This document shows positions 17,851 to 34,042 of a stretch of DNA of 64,000 nucleotides, in pieces. Each line of letters opens with the position of its first letter. Position 1 is the first letter of the stretch. The position numbers and the translations under genes are program-made. The DNA is from Paenibacillus sp. FSL H8-0048 (GTDB lineage Bacteria > Bacillota > Bacilli > Paenibacillales > Paenibacillaceae). The stretch is taken from contig NZ_JBBODF010000001.1 in assembly GCF_038002825.1 (NCBI RefSeq), positions 5,456,001 to 5,520,000 of the forward strand, read 5' to 3'. Under the pieces are notes generated by a model. That model worked only from the letters and a program-made list of their open reading frames with translations, ran no database searches and was not told where the DNA came from.

Positions 17851-17932
17851 GGGTATGCGCATTTGCAGGAAGACAGGACGGTTCTGCCACGGCAGAGGAG
17901 AAGACTGTGCATAATCGTGACTAACGATGTAG

Positions 17933-17974
17933 TTGACAGGTTATCATGTTGGTTGTAATGGACAACATCATATT
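17933..17974 (+). promoter_or_regulatory. Dyad and promoter-like boxes between glmS ribozyme and glmS
   Basis: TTGACA at 17933-17938 is followed 15 bases later by TGTAAT, a spacing slightly short for sigma-A. Overlapping it is an inverted repeat ATGTTG-n11-CAACAT (about 17946-17968). If active, this promoter would make a glmS mRNA that escapes the ribozyme. It could equally be a hairpin in the leader. Confidence 0.3.
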
Positions 17975-18057
17975 TGCTTTTCTTCAAAACATGCCGCACG
18001 GCACGTTTCTTTCCTCATGCGCGCCTAATTACGATAAATTGGACGGAGGAAAATATA

Positions 18058-19890
18058 ATGTGTGGTATTGTAGGATATATTGGTAATCAGAATTCGCAGG
18101 GGATCTTGGTCGAGGGTCTGAAGAAACTGGAATATCGCGGGTATGATTCCGCTGGTATTGCTGTGTTCACGAAGGATGGTCTGCAGGTGGTAAAAGCACA
18201 GGGACGTATGGCGAACCTGGAATCCCGTCTGGACGCGACTCCGCTGACAGGCAGCGCCGGGATCGGTCACACACGCTGGGCTACACACGGCAAGCCATCC
18301 GATGAGAACTCTCATCCTCACACTGACAACAGTCACAAATTCTCGGTAGTACACAACGGGATTGTCGAGAATTACCTGGATCTCAAGGAAGAGCTGATTG
18401 CCGGAGGATGCCACTTCACCTCTGAGACAGATACAGAAGTTATCTCCCACCTGATTGCCCGCGAATACAAGGGAGATATCGTTAAGGCGGTACAGCAGGC
18501 GATTTCTTACATGCGCGGAGCGTTTGCTCTGGGTGTACTGACTGAATATGAACCGGATAAGCTGGTAGCTGTGCGTCAAGCGAGCCCGCTGATCATCGGT
18601 CTGGGCGATGGCGAGAACTTTATCGGGTCTGATATTCCGGCACTGCTAGAATACACCCGCAACGTATATATTCTGAACGACGGCGAAATGGCTGTATTGA
18701 CACGGGATGCTGTCGAACTGATGACGATTGAAGGCAACTTTATTTCTCGGGAAATGATTACTGTCGATTGGGATGCCGTTACCGCAGAAAAGGGCGGTTA
18801 TGAGCACTTCATGCTGAAAGAAATCCACGAGCAGCCTAAGGCATACCGCGATACCATGCGCGGACGGATGAATGCGGAAGGCAACAAAGTCATTCTGCCT
18901 GAGCTTAACCTGACAGAAGAACAAATCAAGAACATCCGCAATATCCAAGTGGTAGCTTGCGGTACTGCATATAATGCCGGATTGGTTGGACGTAACCTGA
19001 TTGAGTCCCTGGTACGCATTCCTGTAGAGAATGATATCGCTTCTGAATACCGTTACCGTTCACCAATCGTAACTCCAGAGACACTGGTTATCGTAGTGAG
19101 CCAATCGGGTGAAACTGCTGATACACTGGCTGCACTTCGTGAAGGTCAAGCGAATGGAGCTCATGTACTTGCAATCACTAACGTAGTAGGCAGCTCTATT
19201 GCCCGGGAAGCAGACAGTGTACTGGTTACGCTGGCTGGTCCAGAAATCGCTGTAGCCTCGACCAAGGCTTACACTTCCCAGCTGATCGCATTCACTTTGC
19301 TGGGTCTGTATCTGGCAGAAGTACGCGGCACACAGTCTGAGGCTGAGGTTACGAAGATTCTGGCCGCTATGCAGTCTCTGCCGGAGCAAGTTGAAGTCAT
19401 TCTGAGTCAAAAAGACGCGATTAAAGCCTATGCCGAGCAAATCGCTGAGCACAAGCACCTGTTCTTCATCGGCCGCGGCGTAGATTACGCTGTAGCTCAG
19501 GAAGGCTCGCTGAAGCTCAAGGAAATCTCCTACATTCACTCGGAAGCCTATGCTGCGGGTGAACTGAAGCATGGTACCCTGGCCCTGATCGAAGAAGGCG
19601 TTCCTGTCATCGCTCTGGCTACCCTGGAATCCGTGCTCGAGAAGACCGTCAGCAATATCAAAGAAGTAAAAGCCCGTGGCGCTCATGTCATGGCCATCAC
19701 CCACGAAGAGCACAAAGACGACCTGCTCCGCTCTGTTGACCAGGTATTCGTGATCCCTCAGACCCTGCCGCTGCTTACCGCTGCATTGTCAGTAGTTACG
19801 CTGCAGTTGCTGGCCTACTACGCATCTCTGGCCCTGGGTCATGATGTCGATAAGCCAAGAAACCTGGCGAAGAGTGTTACTGTGGAGTAG
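18058..19890 (+). CDS. glmS: Glutamine-fructose-6-phosphate aminotransferase
   Basis: Makes glucosamine-6-phosphate from fructose-6-phosphate and glutamine, the first step to amino sugars. It has 610 residues. The N-terminal glutaminase starts MCGIVGYIG with Cys2 as nucleophile, and RWATHG lies near residue 75. Two SIS isomerase domains follow, with VSQSGETADTL near residue 350, and the C-terminus ends NLAKSVTVE as in the family. The start is ATG 18058, preceded by GGAGGAAAATATA; the open frame upstream to 17974 is not part of the protein. A strong terminator follows at 19992. Confidence 0.98.
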   Translation: MCGIVGYIGNQNSQGILVEGLKKLEYRGYDSAGIAVFTKDGLQVVKAQGRMANLESRLDATPLTGSAGIGHTRWATHGKPSDENSHPHTDNSHKFSVVHNGIVENYLDLKEELIAGGCHFTSETDTEVISHLIAREYKGDIVKAVQQAISYMRGAFALGVLTEYEPDKLVAVRQASPLIIGLGDGENFIGSDIPALLEYTRNVYILNDGEMAVLTRDAVELMTIEGNFISREMITVDWDAVTAEKGGYEHFMLKEIHEQPKAYRDTMRGRMNAEGNKVILPELNLTEEQIKNIRNIQVVACGTAYNAGLVGRNLIESLVRIPVENDIASEYRYRSPIVTPETLVIVVSQSGETADTLAALREGQANGAHVLAITNVVGSSIAREADSVLVTLAGPEIAVASTKAYTSQLIAFTLLGLYLAEVRGTQSEAEVTKILAAMQSLPEQVEVILSQKDAIKAYAEQIAEHKHLFFIGRGVDYAVAQEGSLKLKEISYIHSEAYAAGELKHGTLALIEEGVPVIALATLESVLEKTVSNIKEVKARGAHVMAITHEEHKDDLLRSVDQVFVIPQTLPLLTAALSVVTLQLLAYYASLALGHDVDKPRNLAKSVTVE

Positions 19891-19991
19891 GGGGAAATGT
19901 AGGTAACTAATCATTGAATTCGTAAAATAGAAGTGGGAATTAGACGTTAGATTCCGCTACAATCATGCTTCTGCATAAATAATTCGTAATG

Positions 19992-20027
19992 GGACTCTCT
20001 ATTTGTACAATAGAGAGTCCTTTTTTT
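19992..20027 (+). terminator. Terminator downstream of glmS
   Basis: GGACTCTCTA and TAGAGAGTCC form a perfect 10-base-pair stem followed by seven T. It closes the conserved housekeeping block and insulates it from the peptide cluster. Confidence 0.93.
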
Positions 20028-20282: not shown

Positions 20283-20392
20283 TTAGTTGTTTCTATTATT
20301 TGGATTAGGTGTAATTCGTTTGTTTTTTAAGTGAAAATATTCACATATCTTAGATTTTTAACTAACTAAATTTGTTGAAGAGGAGAAATTCT

Positions 20393-21784
20393 ATGTCCGG
20401 GTACAGAGTAAGCAAATACAACATTTATTTGGAAATGAAGCGGGATCAGAATAAAAAACTGATGATTCAGGGAATTCGCGGAGCCTTTGATATTGTGGAT
20501 CATTCCATCGCTGAAATTCTGGAAAAAGGTGAAGCGGATAGCAGCGTGCTGGATGCCATCAGCATTGAGGACAAAGAGGTTCTGGCCAACAGAGGATATA
20601 TTACCACTCTAACAGATGAGGAAGAGTATAAAGTGATTGAGAGAATCAGTCACACCTTGAACGCCAGCAGCCGAAAAAATTTATGTATTACCATCATGCC
20701 TACCTATAACTGCAATTTCAGATGTGAATATTGCTTTGAACAAAATTTGCTGGCTAAAGGTAAGGAGTTTCTTAATAAGAAAATATCAGTAGAAACAGTG
20801 GATGCGATCTTTGTCCAATTAGCTAAATATAAAGCTGAGGGTTATAAAATCGGGAGTGTCTACTTATTTGGCGGAGAGCCGCTTTTGAAAAGCAGTAAGG
20901 ATATTGTAACTTACATATGCGAAAAATGCCGGGAAATGAATATTCCTATCAGTTGCATCAGCAACGGTTATTTTCTGGATGAATATGTCGATTTGATCAA
21001 TGAATATAAGTTTCAAAAAGTTCAAATTACAATTGACGGAATCGGGGAAGAGCATGATAAGCGAAGATTTCTGGTAGGGGGACAGGGAACGTATGACAGA
21101 ATAAAAGCCAACATCAGCTTAGCGTTGGAAAAAGGTAATAATATTTCATTGCGAACCAATGTCAACCGTAAGAATACCGATTCCGTAAAGGCTTTAATTG
21201 AAGAATATCAAAAAGAAGGCTGGATCGGCAAACCTAATTTTCATTATTATTTCAAGACAAATATCAGATGTTATGAGCAGGAGGACGAGAACGCCCTCTC
21301 TGATGTGGAATTGATGCAGCAGTTAGGAGAGTATGTAGGCCAGGGCACGGACCGCTTTAACCTGAACAGTATTTACAGCGGATTAGCCGAAGGGATTAGA
21401 TATATGCTGCAAAATAACAGCTATGCACCGCTCCGTTCAGGTTTTTGCGGTGCAAATACAGGAATGTACACGATAGATCCATTTGGAGATATTTATCCTT
21501 GTTGGGATGTGTTATCCGAGGCGGACAGCCGTATTGGCACGGTAGATGTTCAGCAAGGAGAATTTGTCCTTACTGACGTACATAGTACCTGGAAAGACAG
21601 AACGGTAGACCGTATCAGCGATTGCAGCAAATGCAGATATATGCTGTTTTGCGGCGGCGGCTGCTCTGCCCAGGCTAAAGTAATGCACAATGACATGAAT
21701 CAGGTGTATTGTGATGATTTTACTGCTCTTTTTGATGAGGTTGCCGTGGATCTGTGTGAAGAATATTCCGCTGTGCCATCATAG
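20393..21784 (+). CDS. Radical SAM/SPASM peptide maturase
   Basis: Radical SAM enzyme of 463 residues, the likely main maturase of the cluster. Residues 1-95 form a winged-helix-like region such as binds leader peptides; the 4Fe-4S motif is CNFRCEYC (Cys107, Cys111, Cys114), followed by LFGGEPL near residue 163. The C-terminus is a full SPASM domain with CGANTGMYTIDPFGDIYPCW and CSKCRYMLFCGGGCSAQA, which binds auxiliary clusters. Such enzymes make thioether, C-C or other crosslinks in ribosomal peptides. The precursor genes begin 50 bases downstream. The ATG at 20393 follows AGAGGAGAAATT; a TTG at 20372 is less likely. The gene is AT-richer than glmS before it. Confidence 0.93.
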   Translation: MSGYRVSKYNIYLEMKRDQNKKLMIQGIRGAFDIVDHSIAEILEKGEADSSVLDAISIEDKEVLANRGYITTLTDEEEYKVIERISHTLNASSRKNLCITIMPTYNCNFRCEYCFEQNLLAKGKEFLNKKISVETVDAIFVQLAKYKAEGYKIGSVYLFGGEPLLKSSKDIVTYICEKCREMNIPISCISNGYFLDEYVDLINEYKFQKVQITIDGIGEEHDKRRFLVGGQGTYDRIKANISLALEKGNNISLRTNVNRKNTDSVKALIEEYQKEGWIGKPNFHYYFKTNIRCYEQEDENALSDVELMQQLGEYVGQGTDRFNLNSIYSGLAEGIRYMLQNNSYAPLRSGFCGANTGMYTIDPFGDIYPCWDVLSEADSRIGTVDVQQGEFVLTDVHSTWKDRTVDRISDCSKCRYMLFCGGGCSAQAKVMHNDMNQVYCDDFTALFDEVAVDLCEEYSAVPS

Positions 21785-21834
21785 GCGCTCCACAGATCAT
21801 TAAGCAATAATTAGTCTTTCTAACCAGAAAGGAG

Positions 21835-21981
21835 GTGGATTTTGTTCCTATTGTTACTCTGAATCAGCACCTGGAAGGGGACATTGAAGACATCGAGAAG
21901 ATGATTGTGGAGATGGTAGCAAGGGAAGAGTGTTCCTGCACCGGCAATGGCTGCGGTGGGGATGCTTGTGGCATCAAATAA
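21835..21981 (+). CDS. Precursor-like peptide 1 (Cys/Gly-rich core), start codon uncertain
   Basis: Small peptide of about 48 residues with a leader (LNQHLEGDIEDIEKMIVEMVAREE) and core CSCTGNGCGGDACGIK that align closely with peptide 2. The start is a problem: AAAGGAGG at 21828-21835 is excellent, but the in-frame GTG at 21835 overlaps it, no other standard start lies before the conserved leader, and the well-spaced TTG at 21842 is in another frame and stops after six codons. Either the GTG or a non-standard codon (ATT at 21850) is used, or the gene has lost its start. The core has four Cys, in the pattern CxCTxxGCGxxACG. Confidence 0.7.
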   Translation: MDFVPIVTLNQHLEGDIEDIEKMIVEMVAREECSCTGNGCGGDACGIK

Positions 21982-22004
21982 ATCAAAAAAAGGAAGTGTG
22001 GACA

Positions 22005-22145
22005 ATGAACCGGATTGAATCCCTGAACCGCCAGATTGAAATGAGCAGTGAGGAATTCGAGGATATGATTGCCGAGTTGGTGGAAAGAGAAGAATGTGCC
22101 TGTACGCTGGATGGATGCGGAGCTAAAGCCTGTGGCGTGAATTAA
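22005..22145 (+). CDS. Precursor-like peptide 2 (Cys/Gly-rich core)
   Basis: Clear small gene of 46 residues with ATG after AAAAAAGGAAGTGTGGACA. The acidic leader (SLNRQIEMSSEEFEDMIAEL, then VEREE) precedes a C-terminal core CACTLDGCGAKACGVN with Cys31, Cys33, Cys38 and Cys43. The pattern CxCTxxGCGxxACG is shared with peptide 1. The arrangement is that of a radical-SAM RiPP precursor, with a leader recognised by the maturase and Cys residues as donors for thioether bonds. The Cys-Gly spacing resembles peptides of the so-called ACGX radical SAM families, from memory only. Confidence 0.88.
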   Translation: MNRIESLNRQIEMSSEEFEDMIAELVEREECACTLDGCGAKACGVN

Positions 22146-22181
22146 GCCCAATTAACAGGTTACAGAAAGGATAAGCATATT

Positions 22182-22316
22182 ATGGAGATTAAGATGCTGA
22201 ACCAAGAACTTGACACTGACAGCCAGGAAATGGAGCAACTGATATCGGAGCTGGCTGAACGCGGAGAAATGGCTTGCACTGGAAATGGTTGTGGAGCGCA
22301 AGCGGAAGGCCTTTAA
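22182..22316 (+). CDS. Precursor-like peptide 3 (two-Cys variant)
   Basis: Peptide of 44 residues, too short for most gene callers, starting at an ATG behind AGAAAGGA. Its leader (LNQELDTDSQEMEQLISEL, then AERGE) is homologous to those of peptides 1 and 2. The core is CTGNGCGAQAEGL: only Cys32 and Cys37 remain, and the third Cys position of the ACG motif is Glu42. It may give a product with a single crosslink, or may be a copy that is losing function. Confidence 0.82.
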   Translation: MEIKMLNQELDTDSQEMEQLISELAERGEMACTGNGCGAQAEGL

Positions 22317-22357
22317 CCCTACTAATGACTCTACCTGCTTAGAAAGGAGCGTAACCT

Positions 22358-22549
22358 GTGATTACTTCTATGAATTCTGCGATCGACAATGAAGAACTGG
22401 ACTTATTCATGAATGAGCTCGAAGAAAGAGATGAGATGCTGTGTTTTTTTAATGCCTGTGGCGCCGCTGCCAACCCATGTGGTGGCCAAGCCTGTGCCGC
22501 CGGCTGTGTCGGTATTTCTGTCTGCTTCCTGGGGCTGCACGTAGCCTAA
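22358..22549 (+). CDS. Precursor-like peptide 4 (six-Cys, extended core)
   Basis: Peptide of 63 residues from GTG 22358, which follows AGAAAGGAGCGTAACCT. The leader (IDNEELDLFMNELEERDEM) resembles the end of the other three, but the core is longer and different: Cys29, 34, 41, 46, 50 and 56 in a Gly/Ala-rich, increasingly hydrophobic sequence ending ISVCFLGLHVA. The NACG and QAC segments echo the GCG and ACG of the siblings. Four precursors with one leader type and different cores suggest one set of enzymes making several products, or a two-component system. Confidence 0.85.
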   Translation: MITSMNSAIDNEELDLFMNELEERDEMLCFFNACGAAANPCGGQACAAGCVGISVCFLGLHVA

Positions 22550-22560
22550 ATATTAGATGG

Positions 22561-22602
22561 CAGACCGGACTGCAGGCTGAGTTCTCGTGTTGGTTCGGTC
22601 TG
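22561..22602 (+). promoter_or_regulatory. Hairpin between precursor genes and the downstream operon
   Basis: CAGACCGGAC pairs with GTTCGGTCTG (ten pairs including one G-U) around a 22-base loop, immediately after precursor 4. There is no T-run, so it is not a standard terminator. Such hairpins often stabilise the upstream mRNA, raising precursor levels over enzymes; that role is inferred. Confidence 0.55.
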
Positions 22603-22641
22603 TTAAGGGGATACGGCCTAAACAAGAAGGGAGAGGAACTT

Positions 22642-25059
22642 ATGAATACAGCTACCCCAGTCAACAGCTATTCATGGAGCAACCCTGTCCTTAAGGTGAA
22701 GGAAGAAGTGGAAATTTCAGTATTTGACGATGGCAATGAACAGCCCTGCTATCTGATTACGATGAACGGACGTCAATGGAAGGTATCAGAGACTATTTAT
22801 TATATCCTGTTCAGCATGGACGGCCAGCGGACGGTGGAAGAACTGCAGGAATTTTTGCATGATCGTTATTCACTGAGAATCAGTAAGCAGAAATTGGAGC
22901 AAGTCATTGAGCTAACTTTAGTCCGTAATGGAATTCTGGAAGGTACGATAGCTACAACCGAACCCCCTCATAATAAAATGATGTGGGGCAAATTCACTTT
23001 GCTCCGTCCAAGTGTAATCGCAAAGCTCAAAATTTTTATTTTTTTATTCCATAAAAAGACGTTGACGGGTCTTAGTTCCCTTGCTGTTATATGGCTTGCC
23101 TATATTTTATTCGCCTATTCCAATACACAGGTAATTGGCAGCATGTTCAGTCTGGATATCAAGGATATTGCCTTATGCGTATTTTTTATTTTTGCAACAG
23201 GATTGATTCATGAGTTTGGTCATTCCATTGCAGCAATGTCCTATGGTGTTGCTCCAGGCAGAATTGGTGTTGGAGTATATTTTGTGATGCCGGTAATGTT
23301 CTCGGATGTCACTAGAATTTGGAGAATCAAACGTCATCAGCGTGTAATTGTGGATTTGGCAGGAATGTACCTTCAATGTGTTTTCTTGATGCTGTCCTTC
23401 CTGTTCAATGCGCTATTCTTGCATAGTCATCTCTTGAATATAGCTATTTTACTCTCTGGATTTACGATTCTCGGCAATTTTAATCCTTTTATCAAATTTG
23501 ACGGGTATTGGGTGCTGGTTGATTATCTGGGGATTACAGAGGTGAAGACAGTTATATATCAATTATGGGCCAATCTGTTTTATAAGGTCTTGGGCAGACC
23601 GGCAGTTCCAGTTTTACTGAGTAAAGGAAAAAAAGCCGTGATGTATATATATTCGTTACTTACCGTGTGCTTTTTCGCATCGTTCATCCGGTTCCTGGTA
23701 GAGAGCTGGATTCTGGCGTTCCACAACCTCAGCCATGATATCACAGCTTTGTTAAAGCTGACTCCTTCACAGGTCAATATCAGCTTTGCTGAAGCGGTCA
23801 GATATTTGTCTGACAGAATCACTACATATATTGCCTTGTTCTTTTTCTTGAATCTGGTTTGGCGTTTTATGGTCAAGAAAGTGCTTCTTCAAATCAAAAA
23901 AAACGCACGCGTGTGCCGGAGGAGGTACGCTGTGCAGTTGATTGAAACCTACCGCCAGATTGCACGGAGAGAGATGCTGGATTGCAGAATTAAGTCTCTT
24001 CAGGAATGGGTCCGGCACTACGGCTTAAATCTTCATTCCTATGAAATTATGCTGTTAAGTGAAAGCTATACCTTCATGTATGACCGAATCAAAATACCCG
24101 GGGTAGCCATTGAGGCATTGCCTTACGCTGTAGCATCACAGAATCAGGTGGAAATCCGTTTTTTCCGAAATTTAAATATCCAATATCATCAGGAGCATAT
24201 ATCCGGTGATCTTCCGGGCTGGGAACAGTTCAAGCGCTTAATAGATCAAGACATTCCTGTGTTGTTCAAAATTGACAGCCGCTTCCTGAGAGGGGCTGAG
24301 GATGCTGCTCCTCGAGCACTCAAACTTAACCTGTATTATCTGTCTACCTTATTGCTGGTTGGCTATGATGAAGAACAGGATCAGGCGCTGGTCGTGTTGA
24401 CCAACGATGATGAGCGGGAAAGCGTGAACGAAATCAGTATAGGTGAATTCCAGACCTACAGACACTCCAGTTGCGTACCGTTCTCACCGGGAGGCTTGTG
24501 CTATTATTTGAAGCCGAATGATGGGGACGCCGGAATTCGTTCTCCTGACATTAGGGAGGCTGTACTCAACAGTATTATTGCGACCACGAATATCATGCTG
24601 AACGAAGGCGAGTGGCCCCAATCGGATCTAGGGCTATTTATTGGTGAATCAGACTCCTGGGGGATTCAGGGCATGAAGAGGCTGCAAGAGGATTTACAGA
24701 GGCTGCTGCTTCAATGCAAGACCCAGGGCAACTCGGCGATTATCCGGCTAAAGATAGTTTTTTTGCGCAACAATCTGTTGTTCGGGAGTTATTCTGCATT
24801 CCGAGAAGAGTTTGGACGATGCATAAAATACTGTGCTTTAAAATATAATGTACCTTATTTGTATGATACAGGTTGCGAGTTTGCCCAAATAACATCTTTA
24901 TGGAAGGAGCTCTTCACCTTGTTCAGCAGGATTGCACATAATAAAGGAGAACTGGCCGCAAATCTGCTGCAGGCTCTTCAGGTTTGGGAGAAGATTATTG
25001 TATCAGAGCAGCGACAGTTTACAGCTATCAAAACTATTTTCAGCACCGCTTCTATGTAG
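22642..25059 (+). CDS. PqqD-like / M50 metalloprotease / BtrH-like acyltransferase fusion
   Basis: An 805-residue protein with three parts. Residues about 30-100 (RQWKVSETIYYILFSMDG, then RTVEELQEFL) resemble a PqqD-type peptide-binding domain. Residues about 130-420 are a multi-pass M50 protease with HEFGH at 190-194 and the third metal ligand in KFDGYW at Asp287, as in YydH-type RiPP proteases. Residues about 430-800 match BtrH plus its DUF4872-like tail: DCRIKSLQEWVRHYGL with Cys448 at the nucleophile position, then LLSESYTFMY and LLVGYDEEQDQALVV. BtrH moves an acyl group from a carrier protein to an amine, and a carrier protein and acyl ligase are encoded downstream. ATG 22642 follows GGGAGAGGAACTT. 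The M50 and BtrH assignments are firm to fair; the fusion's role is inferred. Confidence 0.82.
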   Translation: MNTATPVNSYSWSNPVLKVKEEVEISVFDDGNEQPCYLITMNGRQWKVSETIYYILFSMDGQRTVEELQEFLHDRYSLRISKQKLEQVIELTLVRNGILEGTIATTEPPHNKMMWGKFTLLRPSVIAKLKIFIFLFHKKTLTGLSSLAVIWLAYILFAYSNTQVIGSMFSLDIKDIALCVFFIFATGLIHEFGHSIAAMSYGVAPGRIGVGVYFVMPVMFSDVTRIWRIKRHQRVIVDLAGMYLQCVFLMLSFLFNALFLHSHLLNIAILLSGFTILGNFNPFIKFDGYWVLVDYLGITEVKTVIYQLWANLFYKVLGRPAVPVLLSKGKKAVMYIYSLLTVCFFASFIRFLVESWILAFHNLSHDITALLKLTPSQVNISFAEAVRYLSDRITTYIALFFFLNLVWRFMVKKVLLQIKKNARVCRRRYAVQLIETYRQIARREMLDCRIKSLQEWVRHYGLNLHSYEIMLLSESYTFMYDRIKIPGVAIEALPYAVASQNQVEIRFFRNLNIQYHQEHISGDLPGWEQFKRLIDQDIPVLFKIDSRFLRGAEDAAPRALKLNLYYLSTLLLVGYDEEQDQALVVLTNDDERESVNEISIGEFQTYRHSSCVPFSPGGLCYYLKPNDGDAGIRSPDIREAVLNSIIATTNIMLNEGEWPQSDLGLFIGESDSWGIQGMKRLQEDLQRLLLQCKTQGNSAIIRLKIVFLRNNLLFGSYSAFREEFGRCIKYCALKYNVPYLYDTGCEFAQITSLWKELFTLFSRIAHNKGELAANLLQALQVWEKIIVSEQRQFTAIKTIFSTASM

Positions 25060-25093
25060 GGATTAACTTCTAAGAGGAAATGGAGCGTTAAAT

Positions 25094-25492
25094 ATGAGCA
25101 GAAAAAAAATCTTTATCCTGTTGTCTGCCGGATTGCTGCTGTTAATATCGGTCGTGCTTATTGGGGCGGGCTTCCTTGGTCCTGATGTCAGAGTGGGATA
25201 CGGCGAAAACAGCTATGGGAACAAACTGAACGCCTCTTTCTATTATTTTAACGGTACTAACACTAAAAAGCTGAAATTCAACAAAGGAGACCAAGTCAAG
25301 ATGACTTACTCCATTGAATTATCCAAAGGAACCCTCCAGATGAAAGTAAGGGACGAGGCTGACAACGAGGTTTTTCTCAAGACAGAGGGCTCAGGAGAGG
25401 TCGACTTCATTGTAGATAAGACCCAAAATTATGAAATCGAAATCAAGGCTATAAAAGCAAAAGGCAAATATACGCTAGATTGGAGCAAATGA
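25094..25492 (+). CDS. Small membrane-anchored extracellular protein
   Basis: A 132-residue protein with an uncleaved-looking N-terminal hydrophobic segment (about residues 6-28, FILLSAGLLLLISVVLIGAG) and a beta-rich exterior (KLKFNKGDQVKMTYSIEL, FIVDKTQNYEIEI). There is no lipobox. Small proteins of this type are common in peptide-antibiotic clusters next to ABC transporter genes and sometimes contribute to self-protection. That is analogy only; I do not recognise a family. It lies between the protease fusion and the FtsX-type permease. Confidence 0.75.
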   Translation: MSRKKIFILLSAGLLLLISVVLIGAGFLGPDVRVGYGENSYGNKLNASFYYFNGTNTKKLKFNKGDQVKMTYSIELSKGTLQMKVRDEADNEVFLKTEGSGEVDFIVDKTQNYEIEIKAIKAKGKYTLDWSK

Positions 25493-25529
25493 AGGCAGTC
25501 TACACTCCTAACCTATTCTTTCTGTAAAG

Positions 25530-28025
25530 GTGCTGGCGTACGTGAAAATAATTACAAAATACATCCTCAAACATATGGCTGCGAACCGGCTAATCAGTCT
25601 GTTAATCGTTATTGCCTTGACCCTCTCTACTGCAATGATTTATTTGAATATGACGGTCAAAGATCAAATGCTGTTGCAGTATAAGTCGATCCTTCAGGGA
25701 ACATACCAGGATTTTAATTACTATGTATATAAAAGCAACGTCTCCAGCGAGCAGGATAGGTATTTTAGTGTAAATGAGCTGAATTTATCCAATCTAAAGG
25801 TCAAAAACCTACTGGGGCTTACAAAAGCTCCCGGTGCCGGCCAATTAAAAGAGGGAGTCACTCCGCTGAATATCTATGGCATGGACTTAAGCCTGGTACT
25901 GGAAAACAAGCTGCTGGTACTTAAAGAGAGGAAGGCCGGCTTTGATCCTGCCGCTAAGCAACAAGTGATTATCAGTCAGCGTGCAGCGGAAAAGTATGGT
26001 TTTCATATTAATGATACCTTACAGGTATCCACTTTGGCTGGGGAACAAAAGCTGATAGTGGGCGGAATTGCTGAGAATAAAGGCTTATATTTGAAGGAAA
26101 ATAATAAATTGATGTTATTCTCTTCTCCTCAATATGTAGGATATTTAAATGGAATGGGAGACAAGGTGTCAGGTGTCTATGTCCAGAAGGACCTTGCGAT
26201 GGCACCGGAGCATTTCGACACCCAGTTTAGGGCTGATAATCCGGCTTTTACTGGTGACATGCTTGCCAATGAGGCTGCCATTAAGGCAGAGCTGGAGAAA
26301 ACCAATCAGTTGCTGTTTATTGTTTTGCTCGCGGTAATTCTGATGGTTTTCTATTTAAACGCCAGTAATACCAGGATCATTGTGGCCAAAAGAATGCCCG
26401 AAATAGCAACCTTCCGCAGCATTGGGGCCACCCGCTTCAGAATGAATCTGATTCTGCTTGCTGAACATGCGCTATATGGATTGTTTGGCGGTATTATTGG
26501 TGTAATTGCAGGAGTTCTTCTGAAAGAGCCAGTGATGTCCGCTCTGGGCTCCTACGGGGGGAAGGCTTCCTATTTGAATATTCCGGATAAATTTGAAATT
26601 CGATATGTAGTATATTCGCTGGCTTTGACAGTGATTTTTCAGATTCTGGTCTCTATGTATGGAATTCTATCGGCAAGCCGCCAATCGATTAGAGCCATTA
26701 TGCTGGATACTGTATATGCCAAGGCCAGAGTCTCCAGGCCAAGAAGTCTATGCGGGCTCGTCCTCTGGGGATGCTCCATTCTTTTGTATATTGTCAATAC
26801 AGAGTATAGCCTGCTGCTGGCAGGTCTGGTATTTATACTGCTGCTGACAGGTACGATTTGTATGCTTCCTTGGCTTATTAGAGGCTTATCCAGAATTCTC
26901 TCCAGGATAACAAGATTGCGGGCTGGAGCGAGCAATCATCTGTGCAGCAAGAATCTTGCGGGCAGCAAAACCATTCACTCTAGTATTACACTGGTAACAG
27001 TCACTCTATCTATAATGCTAACCATCTATTTAACAACATTATCGATTAATCAGGTATTTGCACGGGTGGGCGAGAGCTTTGAAGGGGATATTCAACTGAC
27101 GGGCTTGTCTGAGCGCGCTGAAATGTACAGCAGACTTGAACTTGTGGAAGGGGTGCAGTCCCTTCAGCCTGTATACTACAGCTTCAATAATATTACAGTT
27201 AATCATCAAGCCATGAATATAGGCATCTTTGGGATGGATCATGAGATGCTCGGAATCAAGGATACCTCGGATAAAATGAGTGGACTGTCAGCAGGAGAAG
27301 CTTTGATCGACAAATATTATGGGCCCCGCAACCAACTGGACATCGGTGACCGGCTGACCCTGAGGAGTGCAGGGAAGGAGGCATTTACAGTGAAGATAGC
27401 CGGCTATGTGGATGCTGGAGAATTCACTTCAAGCAGAAATGTAGTTGTGATCTCTCCAGAGCAATATCTGCAAAAAGTGAGCCGGATTCCAGCCACCATT
27501 GAAATCGGGATTACAGGAAAACCGGAGCAGGTGAAAGATCAGTTGATCCGGACACTGGCTGGAACAGGAGTCAATGTGCAGACTGTGAAGGAGTTCCTGG
27601 ACGGCAACAAAAGTGAGATTGATTCTTTATTGTCTTTGATCAACCTGATTATAGGCTTGTCTGCCTTGATTGCCTTTACGGGCGTGCTCATTAATCAACT
27701 GATCGGATTTCTTCAGCGTAAAAAGGAGTATGCAGTTTTATATTCCCTCGGAATGAGCAGGTCACAGTTGAAGCGGATGGTTGTTATTGAGCTGGCAGGG
27801 ACTTTTGTGACCGGCTGTCTGTTTGCCGGAGGTCTTGGCCTGGTTCTTGCAAAGGCACTGGAGCAGATTCTTTTTTGCATCGGTGAATACGTAAGCATAA
27901 GCTTGGATGTGGCGGCCGCCTGCACATTACTGGGGGGGATGTTCCTTCTTCTGATGATGGCTTCAGCGTTGTCGATCCGAAGAATCCCAAGCTTGAATGT
28001 CGTCCAGGAATTGAAATACGAATGA
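25530..28025 (+). CDS. FtsX/MacB-type ABC transporter permease
   Basis: An 831-residue permease with two FtsX-like domains. An N-terminal helix (residues about 18-38) is followed by a large extracellular domain, then helices near 260-380 with the motif EIATFRSIGATRFRMN. Central helices lie at about 410-500, a second extracellular domain follows, and the final helices (730-820) carry EYAVLYSLGMSRSQLKR. This layout fits BceB/LolE-like permeases that remove peptides from the membrane. Its ATPase is probably the LolD-type protein at 29556, encoded three genes later. The start may be GTG 25530 or GTG 25542; the second is better spaced from TAAAGG. Confidence 0.85.
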   Translation: MLAYVKIITKYILKHMAANRLISLLIVIALTLSTAMIYLNMTVKDQMLLQYKSILQGTYQDFNYYVYKSNVSSEQDRYFSVNELNLSNLKVKNLLGLTKAPGAGQLKEGVTPLNIYGMDLSLVLENKLLVLKERKAGFDPAAKQQVIISQRAAEKYGFHINDTLQVSTLAGEQKLIVGGIAENKGLYLKENNKLMLFSSPQYVGYLNGMGDKVSGVYVQKDLAMAPEHFDTQFRADNPAFTGDMLANEAAIKAELEKTNQLLFIVLLAVILMVFYLNASNTRIIVAKRMPEIATFRSIGATRFRMNLILLAEHALYGLFGGIIGVIAGVLLKEPVMSALGSYGGKASYLNIPDKFEIRYVVYSLALTVIFQILVSMYGILSASRQSIRAIMLDTVYAKARVSRPRSLCGLVLWGCSILLYIVNTEYSLLLAGLVFILLLTGTICMLPWLIRGLSRILSRITRLRAGASNHLCSKNLAGSKTIHSSITLVTVTLSIMLTIYLTTLSINQVFARVGESFEGDIQLTGLSERAEMYSRLELVEGVQSLQPVYYSFNNITVNHQAMNIGIFGMDHEMLGIKDTSDKMSGLSAGEALIDKYYGPRNQLDIGDRLTLRSAGKEAFTVKIAGYVDAGEFTSSRNVVVISPEQYLQKVSRIPATIEIGITGKPEQVKDQLIRTLAGTGVNVQTVKEFLDGNKSEIDSLLSLINLIIGLSALIAFTGVLINQLIGFLQRKKEYAVLYSLGMSRSQLKRMVVIELAGTFVTGCLFAGGLGLVLAKALEQILFCIGEYVSISLDVAAACTLLGGMFLLLMMASALSIRRIPSLNVVQELKYE

Positions 28026-28052
28026 GCCAAAATGGGAAAAGGATGGGATAGG

Positions 28053-28766
28053 GTGACGGCTATTATGGAGTGCCTTGCATTGAGCAAACGGTATGAGCAT
28101 CATACCGCGCTTGATAATATCAACGTGACGGTGGAGCAGGGAAGGATTGTCGGATTGCTCGGACCCAACGGCAGCGGCAAGACAACTCTGCTCAAGCTGA
28201 TCAACGGTCTGCTGGTGCCGTCGAGTGGAGAGGTGAGAATCAATGGAAGGAGCCCAGGCATAGAAACCAAGCGGCAGATCGCTTTCCTTCCTGAGAGGAA
28301 TTGTCTGAACAATTGGATGAAGGTGCAGGAGCTGGTCGCCTTTTACAGCGATTTCTATCCGGACTTCAGCCGCAGCATGGCCTATGAGTTACTAAATAAA
28401 CTGAATATCAACTCCAATGCCCGATTGAAGACCCTCTCTAAGGGGACAAAAGAGAAAATACAAATTATTCTTGTGATGAGCCGTGATGCAGAGCTGTACT
28501 GCCTTGATGAGCCAATCGGCGGGGTAGACCCCGCATCCAGAGACTATATCATCGATACGATTCTGAAATGCTATAACCGAAAAGCCTCCATTTTAATTTC
28601 CACCCATCTGATTGCGGATATCGAGCATATTCTGGATGATGTAATCCTTATCGATCAGGGATGCCTTGTACAGGCGGCGGCAGCCAAAGACATCAGGACC
28701 GGAAATGAAATGACTGTCGATCAATATTTTAGGAGGCTTTATGCTAAAAAAACTGATCAAATATGA
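28053..28766 (+). CDS. ABC transporter ATP-binding protein (YtrB/CcmA type)
   Basis: ATPase subunit of about 237 residues. Walker A is GPNGSGKTT near residue 35, the signature is an atypical LSKGTKEKI, and Walker B is LYCLDEPIGGVDP. Segments FYSDFYPDFSR and LDEPIGGVD are typical of the YtrB-like group that pairs with ABC-2 permeases. The permease gene overlaps its 3' end by 26 bases. GTG 28053 is chosen after GGAAAAGGAT; ATG 28032 or ATG 28065 are alternatives. Confidence 0.85.
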   Translation: MTAIMECLALSKRYEHHTALDNINVTVEQGRIVGLLGPNGSGKTTLLKLINGLLVPSSGEVRINGRSPGIETKRQIAFLPERNCLNNWMKVQELVAFYSDFYPDFSRSMAYELLNKLNINSNARLKTLSKGTKEKIQIILVMSRDAELYCLDEPIGGVDPASRDYIIDTILKCYNRKASILISTHLIADIEHILDDVILIDQGCLVQAAAAKDIRTGNEMTVDQYFRRLYAKKTDQI

Positions 28767-29529
28767 TTTTAAATCAACGATGAGGTATATGTTTCCTGTG
28801 TATCTGATTTTCGTCTTTTTTACAGTATTGGCCTGGGGAACGACCCGTTGGAGCGTATTTGCTGGAGTCTTCGCATTCATTCCTGTTGTGTCCAAGCTGA
28901 CCTATGAGCTGATGCTGGCAGCGGTCATTCTTATAACATACGCTCTGCAGGCTATCCGGTATTATACCAGCATGGTTACTGATGAAGGGTATCTAACCTT
29001 CACTTTGCCTGCTCCTACCCGGAACTTGACCCTTTCCAAGCTTATAACCGCAGTAAGCTGGAATGCTGCAACAATGCTGCTGGTGCTGGCTTCGCTGGCG
29101 GTAGTCTTTTATTCCCCAGACAATTCTCGAGTTTTTAGGGAAGCATTGGAAGGTTTTTTTCAATCAGGAACGGCTGGTCCGGGGACGAGGCTGGTTATAG
29201 CTGTAAGCTCAATAGTAGCTATATACATGGTTTCTTCCATGACCATTAATTTATTTATGTACACGGCTATAGCCTTGGGACAAATTCTTATGGGTAAAAA
29301 CAGACTGGCAGGCACTTTTATTGCAGGCATTGTCGTCTATATTGTAATGCAAATTCTGCTGGTGGCTCTGCTGGTGCCGGCTATATATCTGCTCGGACTC
29401 CATACCGTAAATCAGAGCGGCAATATGTTGTCCTTGATTGGGATATGTGTATTGTTTCAGTTGTTGATCTGCGGTCTTATGTACAGCACGATAAACTATA
29501 TTTTCATCAAGAAATTAAATTTAGAATAA
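28741..29529 (+). CDS. ABC-2 type transporter permease
   Basis: Membrane subunit of 262 residues with about six helices, starting within the end of the ATPase gene and preceded by TTAGGAGGCTTT. The stretch MVTDEGYLTFTLPAPTRNL near residue 80 is a hallmark of ABC-2 permeases next to YtrB-like ATPases. Together they could export the mature peptide or protect the cell from it. Confidence 0.82.
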   Translation: MLKKLIKYDFKSTMRYMFPVYLIFVFFTVLAWGTTRWSVFAGVFAFIPVVSKLTYELMLAAVILITYALQAIRYYTSMVTDEGYLTFTLPAPTRNLTLSKLITAVSWNAATMLLVLASLAVVFYSPDNSRVFREALEGFFQSGTAGPGTRLVIAVSSIVAIYMVSSMTINLFMYTAIALGQILMGKNRLAGTFIAGIVVYIVMQILLVALLVPAIYLLGLHTVNQSGNMLSLIGICVLFQLLICGLMYSTINYIFIKKLNLE

Positions 29530-29555
29530 GGGCAATGGATTAGGAGGGGAGCGTC

Positions 29556-30263
29556 ATCTCATTACTTGAACTGAATCATGTTTACAAGCAGTACAAGGAT
29601 GCTGTTGTTCTGAAGGACGTATCACTAATCATTGCAGAGGGGGAATTTACCACAATAATGGGCTCGTCGGGCAGTGGGAAAAGCACACTCCTGTACATTA
29701 TGAGTGGTATGGAGTATCCAACCAGCGGGACTGTCCACTTATCTGGACGCGATCTTAACAAATTGTCGGACAGACAAAAAAGTAAAATTCGCCAAAGTGA
29801 AATAGGCTTTGTATTCCAGAACTATAATCTTGTTCAAAATCTGACCGTGGAGGAGAACATTGAGCTGCCGGTTCTGTTAGCAGGCAGAAAGAGAAGCACT
29901 GCCGCATCTGGGCTGGAGGAACTACTGGAGCTTCTGGCACTGACAGAACATAGGCGGAAGCTTCCTGCGCAATTGTCAGGAGGGCAGCAGCAGCGGGTGG
30001 CGATTGCCAGGGCAGTTATTAATAATCCCCCGTTGATTCTTGCCGATGAGCCTACTGGAAATCTGGACACCGCCTCGGCGGTTCAGGTGATGGAAATGCT
30101 GCAGCAGCTTAACCGGATTTGGCAAACAAGCATTGTACATATCACCCATAATGCAGAATTGATCGGCTATGGCACCAGAAATATAGTCGTCAAGGATGGA
30201 CAGTTGGTATCGGATACCTTGTTAGCTGCTGATTCTCGCATTGCCATTGTTGGAAACTCTTAA
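29556..30263 (+). CDS. LolD/MacB-type ABC ATPase with a non-standard start codon
   Basis: ATPase of about 235 residues: the N-terminal strand [13 protein letters not shown], Walker [11 protein letters not shown]-loop VFQNYNL, signature LSGGQQQR, Walker [13 protein letters not shown]. It is the natural partner of the FtsX-type permease at 25530. No ATG, GTG or TTG is available upstream: the frame after the stop at 29541 reads GAG GGG AGC GTC ATC TCA. AGGAGG at 29542-29547 is ideally spaced, eight bases, from ATC 29556. Starting at ATG 29658 would remove the first beta strands and leave only the P-loop, so initiation at ATC, or a sequence error, is more likely. Confidence 0.8.
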
Positions 30264-30276
30264 GGAGACTGGTCAA

Positions 30277-31884
30277 ATGAGTGAATTAGAGCGAAACGCC
30301 ATGTTCATGGGAGGAGCAGATAGTATCCCTGAATTTCTGTCTCACAGTGCAGGGAGATACCGCCATCAAACAGCGGTTGAGGCCAAGCAAGACGGCGAGA
30401 GGCTTCAAAAAACATACCTGCAGTTAAAGTCTGATTCGGATGCACTGAGCGCTGCGTTTGAAGCGAGGGGGCTGAGCCAAAAACATGTTGCTTTTATCGG
30501 CGGTTTGAGCTACGAGTGGCTGGTTGCTTTTTTTGGAGTGACAGGCTCTAGCAATATAGCCGTTCCTATGGACAAGGATTTAAGCCTGGATGATCTGGTA
30601 ACCCTGGTTCTTCAGGCCGATATATCCATGTTGTTTGTAGATAGCAGCATGTCGCACATTGTACAGCAGTTGAGGCACAGTTGCGAAACTCTGGAAGTGA
30701 TCGTGTGTTTTCAAGCGGGAGGCCCCTTTCCAAGTATAGCTGAATTCATAAGAGATACCCGGTGCAGCGAGAAACTTAGGTCCACTCATGTGGATGCAGA
30801 TCAGACGGCTATGATTGTCTTCACCTCAAGTGAAACAGGCGGCTACAAAGGCGCAATGCTCTCCCACCGGAATATTTGCCATAATATCATCTGCTCCGTC
30901 TATCTGGCTGGCATAGAAGCCTTTGAGCCCGGAGGGTGCACAGTTGTCGTATTGCCGCCGCATCATATGTTTGCCGTTACGTCAGGGATGCTGGTTCCGC
31001 TGTTGTTTTACGGCTTGACGCTGTGCCTTAGTGGCGGGTTAAGCGGCTATCTGAGCAGTATACAGCAATTCCGCCCCTCGGTGCTCTTTATGGTTCCCAT
31101 GCTTGTGGAAGGCTTACATAAGCGGATCTCGCGAGAGGCAGCAAGGACGGGGCAGTTGAACCTTGAATTTTTTGGCGGACAGTTGCGTACGATTATTTGC
31201 GGCGGGGCTTATCTGGACGCGGAATGGGTGGTGAAATATAAGAAGCTGGGAATTAACCTATTGAACGGATACGGAATTACCGAATGTTCACCGCTTGTCT
31301 CCTGTAACCGGCCTAACGGGATCATCAGTCATTCTGTGGGGCTGGTTGGGCCAGAGCCATATTGCCGGGTACGAATCGAAGATGACGAGATTCAGGTTCA
31401 AGGAAGTATTGTGATGAAGCAATATTACAAGGATTGCAAGAGCACAGCGGAGGCTTTTGACCAGGGCTGGTTTAGAACGGGAGATTTGGGTTATCTGGAT
31501 CAGCATAATTACCTCTATATTACAGGGCGCAAAAAAGACCTTATCATTCTGAAGGACGGCAACAATATTTCACCGGTGGGAATAGAACAAAGCATCGAAC
31601 GGCACCCATTAGTAGATCAGTCACTGGTTTATGCGGACGGTAAGAAGGGTGGGGAGACCCTGGTGGCCATCATACACCCTGATTATGATTATGCAGTTAA
31701 CAACGGATATACTGATGTGAGGTTAGCTTTAGACGAACTCATACAGATGCTAAATGACAATTCGCCTGCATTCAGACGGATTCGGAGACTAGAGGTAAGC
31801 GAGAAGCCCTTCGATAAGCTTGCATTGAAGAAGGAGCTAAGAGCGCCTACTAGAATAACCAGAGAGAAGGTAAATCATGATTAG
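30277..31884 (+). CDS. Acyl-AMP ligase (fatty acyl-CoA/ACP synthetase family)
   Basis: ANL-superfamily enzyme of 535 residues that activates a carboxylic acid with ATP. Motifs are IVFTSSETGGYKGAMLSH (A3 loop, with SSE instead of the usual SGT), LNGYGITECSPLVS (A5), FRTGDLGYLD (A7) and GRKKDLIILKDGNNISP (A8); a C-terminal Lys in FDKLALKKEL is likely the A10 catalytic residue. Overall it is closest to long-chain fatty acid ligases. With the carrier protein overlapping its 3' end by eight bases it should load an acyl chain onto that carrier. The start is ATG 30277 after TAAGGAGACTGGTCAA. Confidence 0.9.
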   Translation: MSELERNAMFMGGADSIPEFLSHSAGRYRHQTAVEAKQDGERLQKTYLQLKSDSDALSAAFEARGLSQKHVAFIGGLSYEWLVAFFGVTGSSNIAVPMDKDLSLDDLVTLVLQADISMLFVDSSMSHIVQQLRHSCETLEVIVCFQAGGPFPSIAEFIRDTRCSEKLRSTHVDADQTAMIVFTSSETGGYKGAMLSHRNICHNIICSVYLAGIEAFEPGGCTVVVLPPHHMFAVTSGMLVPLLFYGLTLCLSGGLSGYLSSIQQFRPSVLFMVPMLVEGLHKRISREAARTGQLNLEFFGGQLRTIICGGAYLDAEWVVKYKKLGINLLNGYGITECSPLVSCNRPNGIISHSVGLVGPEPYCRVRIEDDEIQVQGSIVMKQYYKDCKSTAEAFDQGWFRTGDLGYLDQHNYLYITGRKKDLIILKDGNNISPVGIEQSIERHPLVDQSLVYADGKKGGETLVAIIHPDYDYAVNNGYTDVRLALDELIQMLNDNSPAFRRIRRLEVSEKPFDKLALKKELRAPTRITREKVNHD

Positions 31885-32155
31885 AGAACAGAATGACGAG
31901 ACGATGCTGAAAATCAAAACAGTGATCTCTCCATTTACAGATGTTGATATTCAGGAGATTCAGATGGAATCCAAGCTGATTTGCGATCTGGGGTTCACTT
32001 CCTTTGATTTAGTATGTCTGCTGTCTGTACTGGAAGAAGAATTCGGTCTGAAGGTCGATGAGAAAATGCTGAAAGGTATTCAAACGGTGGAAGATGTGAG
32101 GAATGCAGTCTTAAAGCACCAGGCGTCAAGCCAGACAGTTCTAAAAACCGAATAG
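31877..32155 (+). CDS. Acyl carrier protein
   Basis: A 92-residue acyl carrier protein. The phosphopantetheine site is in DLGFTSFDLVCLL with Ser42; the usual DSL is TSF here. The surrounding helices (LKIKTVISPF, LSVLEEEFGLKV, VEDVRNAVLKH) fit the four-helix fold. It overlaps the acyl ligase gene by eight bases, so the two are made together. It is a dedicated carrier, distinct from the fatty acid synthase ACP. In this cluster it probably presents an acyl group to the BtrH-like domain of the fusion protein. No phosphopantetheinyl transferase is encoded nearby. Confidence 0.9.
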   Translation: MIREQNDETMLKIKTVISPFTDVDIQEIQMESKLICDLGFTSFDLVCLLSVLEEEFGLKVDEKMLKGIQTVEDVRNAVLKHQASSQTVLKTE

Positions 32156-32169
32156 AAGAGGTGAAGAGG

Positions 32170-33453
32170 ATGACAGTATTGATGAAGAAAGCTGTTCTGA
32201 ATGAAGAGGCCTTAAGTGCAATGCAGCAATGCGATTTAAGCGAATTGGCCGGATATGTGGGGGAATTTTTTCAAGGTAAGAATGAGAGCTTTACGTACAA
32301 CCCGGCCGGCGGCAATTTTTATATGAGCAGTTTCTTCCCCTCCTTCCCCAGCCCTGCCTGGAATCGGCTGATCGCTGGTATTCATGACATTGTCTATGAG
32401 GACAAGCGAGTTCCGCTTCAAGCTGATATTGTGGTTACGGGAAGATGCCATTGCGACTGCTGGCACTGCTTCAGAGCCAAATACGGACAAGAAGATATGA
32501 GTCTGGATAAAATTAAGGAATGTATGAATGCTTTAGCGGAGCTCGGGGCTGCTTCGGTGGGAATTACTGGAGGGGAGCCTATGCTGCGGACGGACATTAT
32601 GGAGATTATCGGAGCCATACCGGAAGGAATGGAAGGGGTTCTATTCTCAACCGGTCTTGGCATTGATGATGCTTTTGCGCTCAAGCTGGAGCATACCCGT
32701 TTGACCAGATGTATACTGAGCCTGGATCATTTCGATGAGGAAATTTGCTGTAAGCTCAGACGTAACCGTAACGCCTTCAAGGATGCTGTACAAGCCATTC
32801 AAGCACTGACGGCTAAGGATATCTATACGGCTGTGACGGTCTGCATTACGCATGAATTGATGAAGGAAGGGGCATTGCAGCAGTATTTCGAATTTGTCGG
32901 GGGGCTTGGGGTTCAAGAGGTGCGGGTAGTGATGCCTATTCCGCAGGGTAATCTGGAAGGTCAAGAGGTAGGCAGATTTTATGGAAAAGCCATGGGATTG
33001 TTGAAACAGCTAAAACGAGAAAATGCAGCCAATGAGGCATTCCCGGTCATTATTAATTTCTGCGAGTTTGAAAGCTCAGATTACTTTGGATGCGGTGCAG
33101 GCTCCAATTATATTGCGATTAATAATGACGGCCATGTGTCGCCATGCGTCTCAGTGCCCTCCTCATTCGGAAGCGTATATGACCATACATTGGAGAAAAT
33201 ATATAATGATATGGGAGCCATCTTCTCCAGCTCCAATTGTGCCTGCTTCGGAATTTCATCCAGCAGTGTCATTGCCAAAGAAAATATTGATACTTCCTTA
33301 ACGCCGATGCCGCCTGAGTTGTCCGTTGAGGTTGCCAAAAAATGCAGAGTTTCAAGTGAAAGAGCGGGCATATTCAGATATTGTGCCTCCAAAGGCCGGC
33401 CTAAGGAGGAAGCGGCGGGTGAAGCTGAGCTTGAATTACCGAGTTCTGTCTAG
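32170..33453 (+). CDS. Second radical SAM enzyme
   Basis: Radical SAM protein of 427 residues. The cluster motif is CHCDCWHC with Cys93, Cys97 and Cys100 as CxxxCxxC ligands plus an extra Cys95, followed by GITGGEPML. The C-terminal part has more cysteines (FGCGAGSNYI, INNDGHVSPCV, SSNCACFG, FRYCASKG), consistent with a SPASM or twitch-like auxiliary cluster but not the standard spacing. It differs from the first maturase in sequence and lacks its N-terminal region. It may act on the peptide or on the acyl chain while it is on the carrier protein encoded just before. GTG 32161 is an alternative start. Confidence 0.88.
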   Translation: MTVLMKKAVLNEEALSAMQQCDLSELAGYVGEFFQGKNESFTYNPAGGNFYMSSFFPSFPSPAWNRLIAGIHDIVYEDKRVPLQADIVVTGRCHCDCWHCFRAKYGQEDMSLDKIKECMNALAELGAASVGITGGEPMLRTDIMEIIGAIPEGMEGVLFSTGLGIDDAFALKLEHTRLTRCILSLDHFDEEICCKLRRNRNAFKDAVQAIQALTAKDIYTAVTVCITHELMKEGALQQYFEFVGGLGVQEVRVVMPIPQGNLEGQEVGRFYGKAMGLLKQLKRENAANEAFPVIINFCEFESSDYFGCGAGSNYIAINNDGHVSPCVSVPSSFGSVYDHTLEKIYNDMGAIFSSSNCACFGISSSSVIAKENIDTSLTPMPPELSVEVAKKCRVSSERAGIFRYCASKGRPKEEAAGEAELELPSSV

Positions 33454-34042
33454 GTTATATGATGTATGTGATTTGCTGTTCTTCAGCCGACCCGGAAGGA
33501 GTCCCCGCCAAGCCTTATTAGGCTTCTTACCGGATGAACCGGTCCATATCCTTGATATCTGTGCGGGCACAGCCAGCAATGACATTCTGATTGCAGAGCA
33601 GAAATCCAATGCTACGGTAGTCGGAATTGATAATTCCAAAGAGATGCTCTCCATAGCCCGCAGGAAAATAGCCCAAAAAAAGCTTCACGGTGTGAACATG
33701 CTTGAAATGGATGCCATGAAGCTGGAATTTGCCGGACAGTCTTTTGATGTGGTGATTATTTCATTGATATTACATGAGATGGGAAAACCCTTGGCCAGCA
33801 AAATGCTAAGCGAAGCACGGAGGGTTGTAAAACCGGAGGGAATGATCTTAGTAGTAGAGTGGGAGCAGCCTCAGGGCTTGTTTCAGAAATGTATGTTCTC
33901 CATCATTAAGCGGCTTGAATTCGACAACTTTGAACACTTTTTGAAAAAGGATCTGAAACAGTATTTTAAAAATCACGGATTCAGTATCGAAAATGTGAAG
34001 CACTGCGATTATACGCAAATTCTCCAGCTTAAAGTCCAGTGA
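33419..34042 (+). CDS. Class I SAM-dependent methyltransferase (UbiE-like)
   Basis: Methyltransferase of 207 residues with motif I ILDICAGTASNDI, motif II VVGIDNSKEML, and motif IV VVIISLILHEM. The start is GTG 33419, nine bases after AAGGAGG at 33403, inside the end of the radical SAM gene (35-base overlap), so the two are coupled. The resemblance to UbiE/MenG enzymes suggests C-methylation or O-methylation of a small molecule or peptide. It is the last gene of the cluster. Confidence 0.88.
   Translation: MKLSLNYRVLSRLYDVCDLLFFSRPGRSPRQALLGFLPDEPVHILDICAGTASNDILIAEQKSNATVVGIDNSKEMLSIARRKIAQKKLHGVNMLEMDAMKLEFAGQSFDVVIISLILHEMGKPLASKMLSEARRVVKPEGMILVVEWEQPQGLFQKCMFSIIKRLEFDNFEHFLKKDLKQYFKNHGFSIENVKHCDYTQILQLKVQ

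Follow-up and report, generated by a model that had tools for sequence, protein, structure and literature searches.

Tandem leader-sharing precursor peptides in a Paenibacillus radical-SAM/SPASM operon, with a possible route to cross-linked and acylated RiPPs

The stretch of 64,000 nucleotides from Paenibacillus sp. FSL H8-0048 that was analysed here (the window) carries four tandem genes for short peptides, P1 to P4, which are predicted precursors of a radical-SAM/SPASM RiPP system without a curated family. These paralogous precursors with a shared leader, a radical-SAM/SPASM enzyme (rSAM1) and a PqqD-M50 protease make up a predicted operon core that is conserved in several lineages. In the other lineages, the gene set is nearly always accompanied by fatty-acid-handling enzymes; this suggests that the cross-linked peptides are capped with a fatty acid, and that the cell would make a mixture of such peptides. 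The full reading, namely a multi-product radical-SAM RiPP whose cleaved and cross-linked cores would be N-acylated, has in our judgement an even chance of being correct. All genes from rSAM1 through that of a methyltransferase point the same way and follow each other in a single run (20393-34042, + strand):

20393..21784, +: rSAM1, radical-SAM/SPASM peptide maturase; 463 aa; ATG at 20393 behind GAGGAG; Radical_SAM E 2.7e-18
21850..21981, +: precursor P1; type A core CSCTGNGCGGDACGIK; start codon uncertain (GTG 21835 first proposed; candidate ATT 21850); held-out profile E 5.5e-11
22005..22145, +: precursor P2; 46 aa; type A core CACTLDGCGAKACGVN; held-out profile E 3.4e-13
22182..22316, +: precursor P3; 44 aa; type B two-Cys core MACTGNGCGAQAEGL; held-out profile E 4.9e-13
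22358..22549, +: precursor P4; 63 aa; type C six-Cys hydrophobic core; held-out profile E 3.8e-9
22558..22605, +: stem-loop between P4 and the protease gene; MFE -24.8 kcal/mol, z only -1.0 in the window
22642..25059, +: fusion of PqqD-like, M50 intramembrane metalloprotease and BtrH_N/DUF4872 acyltransferase-like domains, assigned by domain matches, motifs and fold
25094..25492, +: small protein, secreted or anchored in the membrane, that is conserved along with the cluster (homologs in L039, 42%; L040, 24%; L078-L080, 38%)
25530..28025, +: FtsX-type ABC permease; FtsX E 2.4e-21
28032..28766, +: ABC ATPase; homolog on an Epulonipiscium contig
28741..29529, +: ABC-2 type membrane permease; homolog on an Epulonipiscium contig; no Pfam match
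29544..30263, +: ABC ATPase; the open frame extends N-terminally beyond the first ATG, without ATG/GTG/TTG
30277..31884, +: acyl-AMP ligase (fatty-acyl ligase-like); AMP-binding E 1.3e-46; PRK06187 E 1.7e-63
31877..32155, +: acyl carrier protein (ACP); LGFTSFD site; PP-binding E 1.2e-7; matches to acyl carrier protein models
32161..33453, +: rSAM2, second radical-SAM/SPASM protein; Radical_SAM E 1.2e-14, SPASM E 2.8e-6
33326..34042, +: SAM-dependent methyltransferase; Methyltransf_25 E 4.6e-21

The four peptides had been proposed in a sequence-only reading, and all of them are confirmed here. As noted there, P1 and P2 have the core pattern CxCTxxGCGxxACG in common, P3 lacks two of the cysteines (ECxC is changed to EMAC, and ACG to AEG), and P4 has six cysteines in a longer hydrophobic core; the leaders end in REE (P1 and P2), RGE (P3) and RDE (P4). 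In order to avoid circularity, the precursor profile was built from 31 precursors from other genomes, none of them from the window. P1-P4 are its sole four matches in the whole 7.46 Mb genome (E ≤ 10), which rules out chance open reading frames. Comparison with the Epulonipiscium counterparts gives pS of 0.76-0.99 and pN of 0.24-0.38, with pN/pS of 0.31-0.42 across P1-P4 and near-saturated synonymous sites; the low pN against the high pS indicates that the reading frames are constrained at the protein level. No NCBIfam or Pfam model matches P1-P4 above cut-off, and a scan of the 31 relatives against NCBIfam likewise matched no precursor family. The peptides combine the features by which precursors of radical-SAM RiPPs are recognised: short open reading frames, a conserved leader and a variable core, a neighbouring radical-SAM/SPASM gene, and conservation across genomes.

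The start of P1 is a special case. The GTG at 21835, proposed at first, turns out to fall within a 12-nt Shine-Dalgarno match (AGAAAGGAGGTG, 21826-21837). At normal spacing from it there is no in-frame ATG, GTG or TTG; a GTT is found at 21844 and an ATT at 21850. Those relatives whose start region was inspected all begin with ATG or GTG after a clear ribosome-binding site. The translation of P1 is uncertain because a well-placed start codon is lacking: P1 may be silent or weakly translated, or may start at ATT 21850. A similar situation is seen in the ABC ATPase gene that ends at 30263. Its full N-terminal domain is in frame (29544-29660), with no ATG, GTG or TTG before about residue 38, and it likely uses ATC or another rare start. 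The operon thus contains two genes without a standard start.

Orthologous clusters are found in an Epulonipiscium MAG (L039; contigs L107 and L108 carry further pieces of the operon), two Ruminococcus MAGs (L040 and L041), a genome from the same family as that of L041 (L129, genome G1196), and three more genomes from the genus of the window (L078-L080). The last three are near relatives, so that the number of independent lineages is about five. Small genes beside related maturases, whose absence would have counted against the proposed array, are indeed present: rSAM1 orthologs at 68 (L039), 57, 55, 47 and 44% identity are accompanied by leader-bearing peptides, as P1-P4 adjoin rSAM1 in the window. 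Between 2 and 14 precursors were found per cluster, with 14 in one Ruminococcus. Long, hydrophobic, Cys-rich peptides like P4 occur in L039, L040 and L041 (six cysteines) and in L078-L080 (five cysteines), usually as the last of the array. Short peptides with a CTGxxC core also recur in relatives; these include two-Cys forms like P3 (5324-5461 in L039; 7912-8037 in L041).

The array had been explained by duplication followed by diversification under one maturase. The first part fits P1 and P2, which look like a lineage-specific duplicate pair and are sisters in a leader tree (support 95/83; a weak tree of 31 columns, with forks mostly unresolved). The P4 type, however, is older, and the two-Cys core of P3 recurs in Epulonipiscium and Ruminococcus. 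In the same weak tree, the P4 type is more clustered than shuffled labels are (2 changes vs 4.7) and may or may not form a single clade (p-AU 0.228). The notion of one maturase is not supported in that form: a second radical-SAM/SPASM gene lies in the operon (32161-33453), and it is also present in the Epulonipiscium genome. Together with the methyltransferase, rSAM2 was seen only in these two genomes; in the latter, an rSAM2 homolog lies beside an ACP gene on L108, and a 42% homolog of the methyltransferase lies directly upstream of rSAM1 in L039. The closest solved relative of rSAM2 is SkfB (E 3.5e-9).

In ten orthologs of rSAM1, the CNFRCEYC motif and a set of seven SPASM cysteines are invariant. 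Its top NCBIfam scores are those for TIGR04463 (149.5 bits), CefB (147.6 bits) and PapB (138 bits), all of them far under the cut-offs, which places rSAM1 outside every curated family; its best solved relative is 5wgg. Among the matches listed for a plasmid collection, no rSAM1 ortholog exceeds 32% identity.

The cores are built on the repeat unit C-x-x-[N/D]-x. In 26 non-redundant cores, the gap from one cysteine to the next is exactly five in 32 of 63 cases (shuffled mean 5.6), and 32 cysteines are followed by N/D at +3 (shuffled mean 10.2); none of 5000 shuffles was as high in either case, although the test overstates significance because the core sequences are related, and the numbers are to be taken as describing a pattern, not as a strict probability. 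The share of cysteines with N/D is 37% at +3 and 10% at +4. The repeat unit likely reflects the donor-acceptor spacing of a radical-SAM cross-link, with the +3 acceptor assigned on statistical grounds only.

Radical-SAM thioether RiPPs are already known. The present system shares with the PapB and SCIFF ranthipeptide maturases a radical-SAM/SPASM enzyme with CX3CX2C and 7-Cys SPASM motifs, Cys-rich cores and leader-bearing precursors. It differs from them in score (138 bits against the PapB cut-off of 340, NF047865; 99 against 425 for SCIFF), in its arrays of 2-14 precursors and in its acyl genes. PapB substrates have CX3D/E spacing (PMC9413430); the cores do not follow this motif, with its acceptor at +4, but favour N/D at +3. 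The cores do have a cysteine at every fifth residue, as in the CefA/CefB 'Cys-every-fifth' system (NF038107), whereas rSAM1 stays far under the 600-bit cut-off for CefB, and the precursors tested match no NCBIfam precursor model. The protease resembles those of the daptide and YydH/LiaK epipeptide RiPP clusters (E 2.1e-34 and 4.3e-13), which are likewise HExxH intramembrane metalloproteases, but scores 119 bits against a cut-off of 300 (NF041824) and 49.5 against 225, respectively. The remaining daptide and epipeptide models gave no match.

The fusion protein comprises a PqqD-like and M50 part (about residues 1-425) and a BtrH_N/DUF4872 domain (about 425-805), with matches to the daptide HExxH, BtrH_N (E 1.1e-6) and PqqD (E 0.013) models. 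The protease part contains both M50 motifs, HExxH (HEFGH) and NxxPxxxxDG (NFNPFIKFDGYW); its orthologs have HExGH and NPF..DG, or NLVPFFKLDG in L129. For the second part, a search of solved structures with a BtrH-domain profile found no true relative, and only fold comparison did. The AlphaFold2 model, a confident one (pLDDT 84), has the papain-like plus helical fold of the BtrH/CcbD/CtaG family, and among solved structures it comes closest to AziU3, CcbD and CtaG (Foldseek E 1e-9 to 1e-6; Z 20-22, next fold 12.6). The copy in L039 also matches DarH_acyl (E 3.3e-15). As in this family, the nucleophilic cysteine (DCR) is invariant in all eight BtrH domains, together with a set of polar residues. 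Unlike in the family, the position of the catalytic histidine is occupied by serine in all eight, and that of the catalytic aspartate by threonine, asparagine, histidine or another residue. Activity by the known mechanism is therefore doubtful; the domain is not claimed to be a plain active acyltransferase, and its putative chemistry, if any, is altered. Further differences from the family are its location, either within the same protein as an M50 protease or beside one, and its acceptor, which would be a ribosomal peptide.

CcbD forms amides in a carrier-protein-dependent manner via a cysteine thioester, and takes fatty acyl groups (PMC12945683). Among 28 loci with rSAM1 homologs, a ketosynthase (KS), AMP ligase or ACP gene is present in seven of the eight that bear a BtrH domain, and in none of the 20 that do not (Fisher p 6.8e-6). 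The eighth, L039, is without local acyl genes because of contig breaks: in its genome, AMP ligase, ACP and rSAM2 are encoded on contigs other than L039, which gives 8/8 when split contigs are counted. The type of supply varies between lineages: a KS-CLF fusion with a ketoreductase (L040, L078-L080), AMP ligase with ACP (the window, L039, L041), or a PfaA-like synthase with AMP ligase and ACP (L129). Varied suppliers for one putative transferase are a pattern that would be expected of an acylation step. The window has protease and BtrH domain in a single protein, and in most relatives the two are neighbours, with a KS gene between them in L040. Lysine is absent from 22 of 32 cores, which leaves the N-terminus as the only universal amine; this, and the fusion or adjacency of protease and transferase, favours N-terminal capping. 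In L129, the PfaA-like gene encodes a polyunsaturated-fatty-acid-type synthase (TIGR02813 E 4e-262); this gene and a second ketosynthase gene (together 12923-20000) lie directly downstream of the RiPP cluster.

In the mechanism that we propose, rSAM1 would bind the common leader (LN...EELxERxE) and form thioether links from each cysteine to the residue three positions on, so that cores with two, four or six cysteines would give differently ringed products. The PqqD-M50 protease would then cut off the leader near ERxE. The AMP ligase may load the dedicated ACP with an acyl chain, which the fused BtrH/CcbD-like domain would move onto the freed N-terminus. Tailoring of the acyl chain or the peptide could be carried out by rSAM2 and the methyltransferase, and export of the family of lipid-capped, cross-linked peptides by the ABC systems. 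P4 would be the conserved hydrophobic component, around which the short peptides vary. The stem-loop downstream of P4 possibly sets the stoichiometry of precursors to enzymes; loops at the same position in relatives have z of -3.7 (L078, 9650-9690), -2.8 (L039, 5690-5722), -2.9 (L041, 9118-9153) and -2.0 (L040). The product class is probably set less by the tandem array than by the genes for the protease, acyl transfer and acyl supply.

The operon may also encode an ordinary multi-precursor thioether RiPP similar to ranthipeptides or sactipeptides, whose array diversifies the cores only; the BtrH domain would then be an inactive papain-like domain for binding or scaffolding, and the acyl genes would serve an unrelated or accessory metabolite. 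The replaced histidine and aspartate would fit such a case, as would the best scores of rSAM1, those with the TIGR04463, CefB and PapB maturases, its solved relative 5wgg, and the existence of more distant radical-SAM plus M50 clusters without BtrH or acyl genes. We nonetheless consider it less likely than the acylated reading, given that BtrH and acyl supply occur together in all BtrH-bearing lineages, through several unrelated supply types, and in none of the 20 other loci, that the cysteine and polar residues of the domain are invariant, and that it is fused to the protease in the window.

Two further possibilities concern the peptides themselves. By analogy with thuricin CD, in which two radical-SAM enzymes are reported to divide the substrates (PMC12093266), P4 (ACxxGCxG-like) might be the main bacteriocin of a two-component antimicrobial, with the short peptides as partners and the two radical-SAM enzymes splitting the substrates. 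In five genome groups (the window and four others), each array does have a single peptide of the P4 type, and the operon has two radical-SAM/SPASM genes, one of them closest to SkfB. However, rSAM2 was found in no genome other than those of the window and Epulonipiscium, the P4 type also where rSAM2 was not seen, and L041 has 13 short peptides per one P4 type, so that this arrangement appears distinctly improbable. More improbable still is a partly decaying array, in which P2 and P4 alone are of importance and P1 and P3 are copies undergoing degeneration. The start-codon anomaly of P1 and the reduction of P3 to two cysteines point that way; against it stand pN/pS values relative to the Epulonipiscium genes of 0.38 (P3) and 0.42 (P1) and the recurrence of the P3-type core in L039 and L041, which rule out that P3 is simply degenerate.

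Returning to acylated, cross-linked peptides, the most far-reaching version of this reading is a new class of ribosomal lipopeptides, with 2-14 radical-SAM-cross-linked cores, release by an intramembrane protease, an N-terminal cap added by a carrier-protein-dependent papain-like acyltransferase with an altered site, and interchangeable lipid or polyketide supply modules. We put this forward tentatively, as somewhat less probable than an even chance. Ribosomal peptides with fatty-acid or polyketide chains include lipolanthines (microvionin), goadvionins, lipoavitides and selidamides, and those treated in PMC13060382 are lanthipeptides acylated by GNAT enzymes. Here, in contrast, the peptide enzyme is a radical-SAM protein and the only acyltransferase candidate is the BtrH/CcbD-like domain; the genes annotated at 20372-34042 include neither a GNAT acyltransferase nor a lanthipeptide synthetase. 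In the literature searched, whose coverage leaves out most subscription papers, nothing joins radical-SAM RiPPs with BtrH-type transfer. If correct, the proposal would bring together two RiPP chemistries, radical-SAM cross-linking and fatty acylation, that no paper in that literature describes side by side, would name an enzyme type other than GNAT for the lipidation of RiPPs, and would provide a gene signature (radical-SAM, PqqD-M50, BtrH and acyl supply) for finding more clusters. The coupled cleave-and-cap step implied by the protease-acyltransferase fusion is directly testable, the 14-precursor Ruminococcus cluster would be a natural library from one maturase, and the altered catalytic site would raise the question of a papain-like amide synthase that works without histidine.

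Several other loci border on this system. A more distant form of the cluster, without BtrH, occurs in Petrocella (L042). L090-L097, rSAM1 homologs of about 30% identity from a Firmicutes sample, lack BtrH, M50 and any match to the leader profile, and were set aside as a different system. L081-L087, from the family of the window, contain related radical-SAM and PqqD-M50 clusters, a sister system that has no name yet and lacks both BtrH and acyl genes; L081, L083 and L084 have two adjacent radical-SAM genes each, and L081 and L082 a different short precursor, EVEELENRDEMTTTNAV... MAG clusters L044 (17349-17531) and L045 (8782-9009) encode a peptide rich in Cys, with rSAM1 at 32%; the leader of this peptide, DxLDxxIEELExRLEQAC, is a weak match to the precursor profile. 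The small protein encoded at 25094..25492 in the window matches no NCBIfam or Pfam family. A sigma-70-family (ECF-like) sigma factor gene, 12198-12752 in L078, lies within the cluster of L078-L080 and may control it. Finally, the genome of the window itself has another radical-SAM gene beside a BtrH_N match, in a region of AMP-ligase-like genes (L131; G000:C1 717253-718761).
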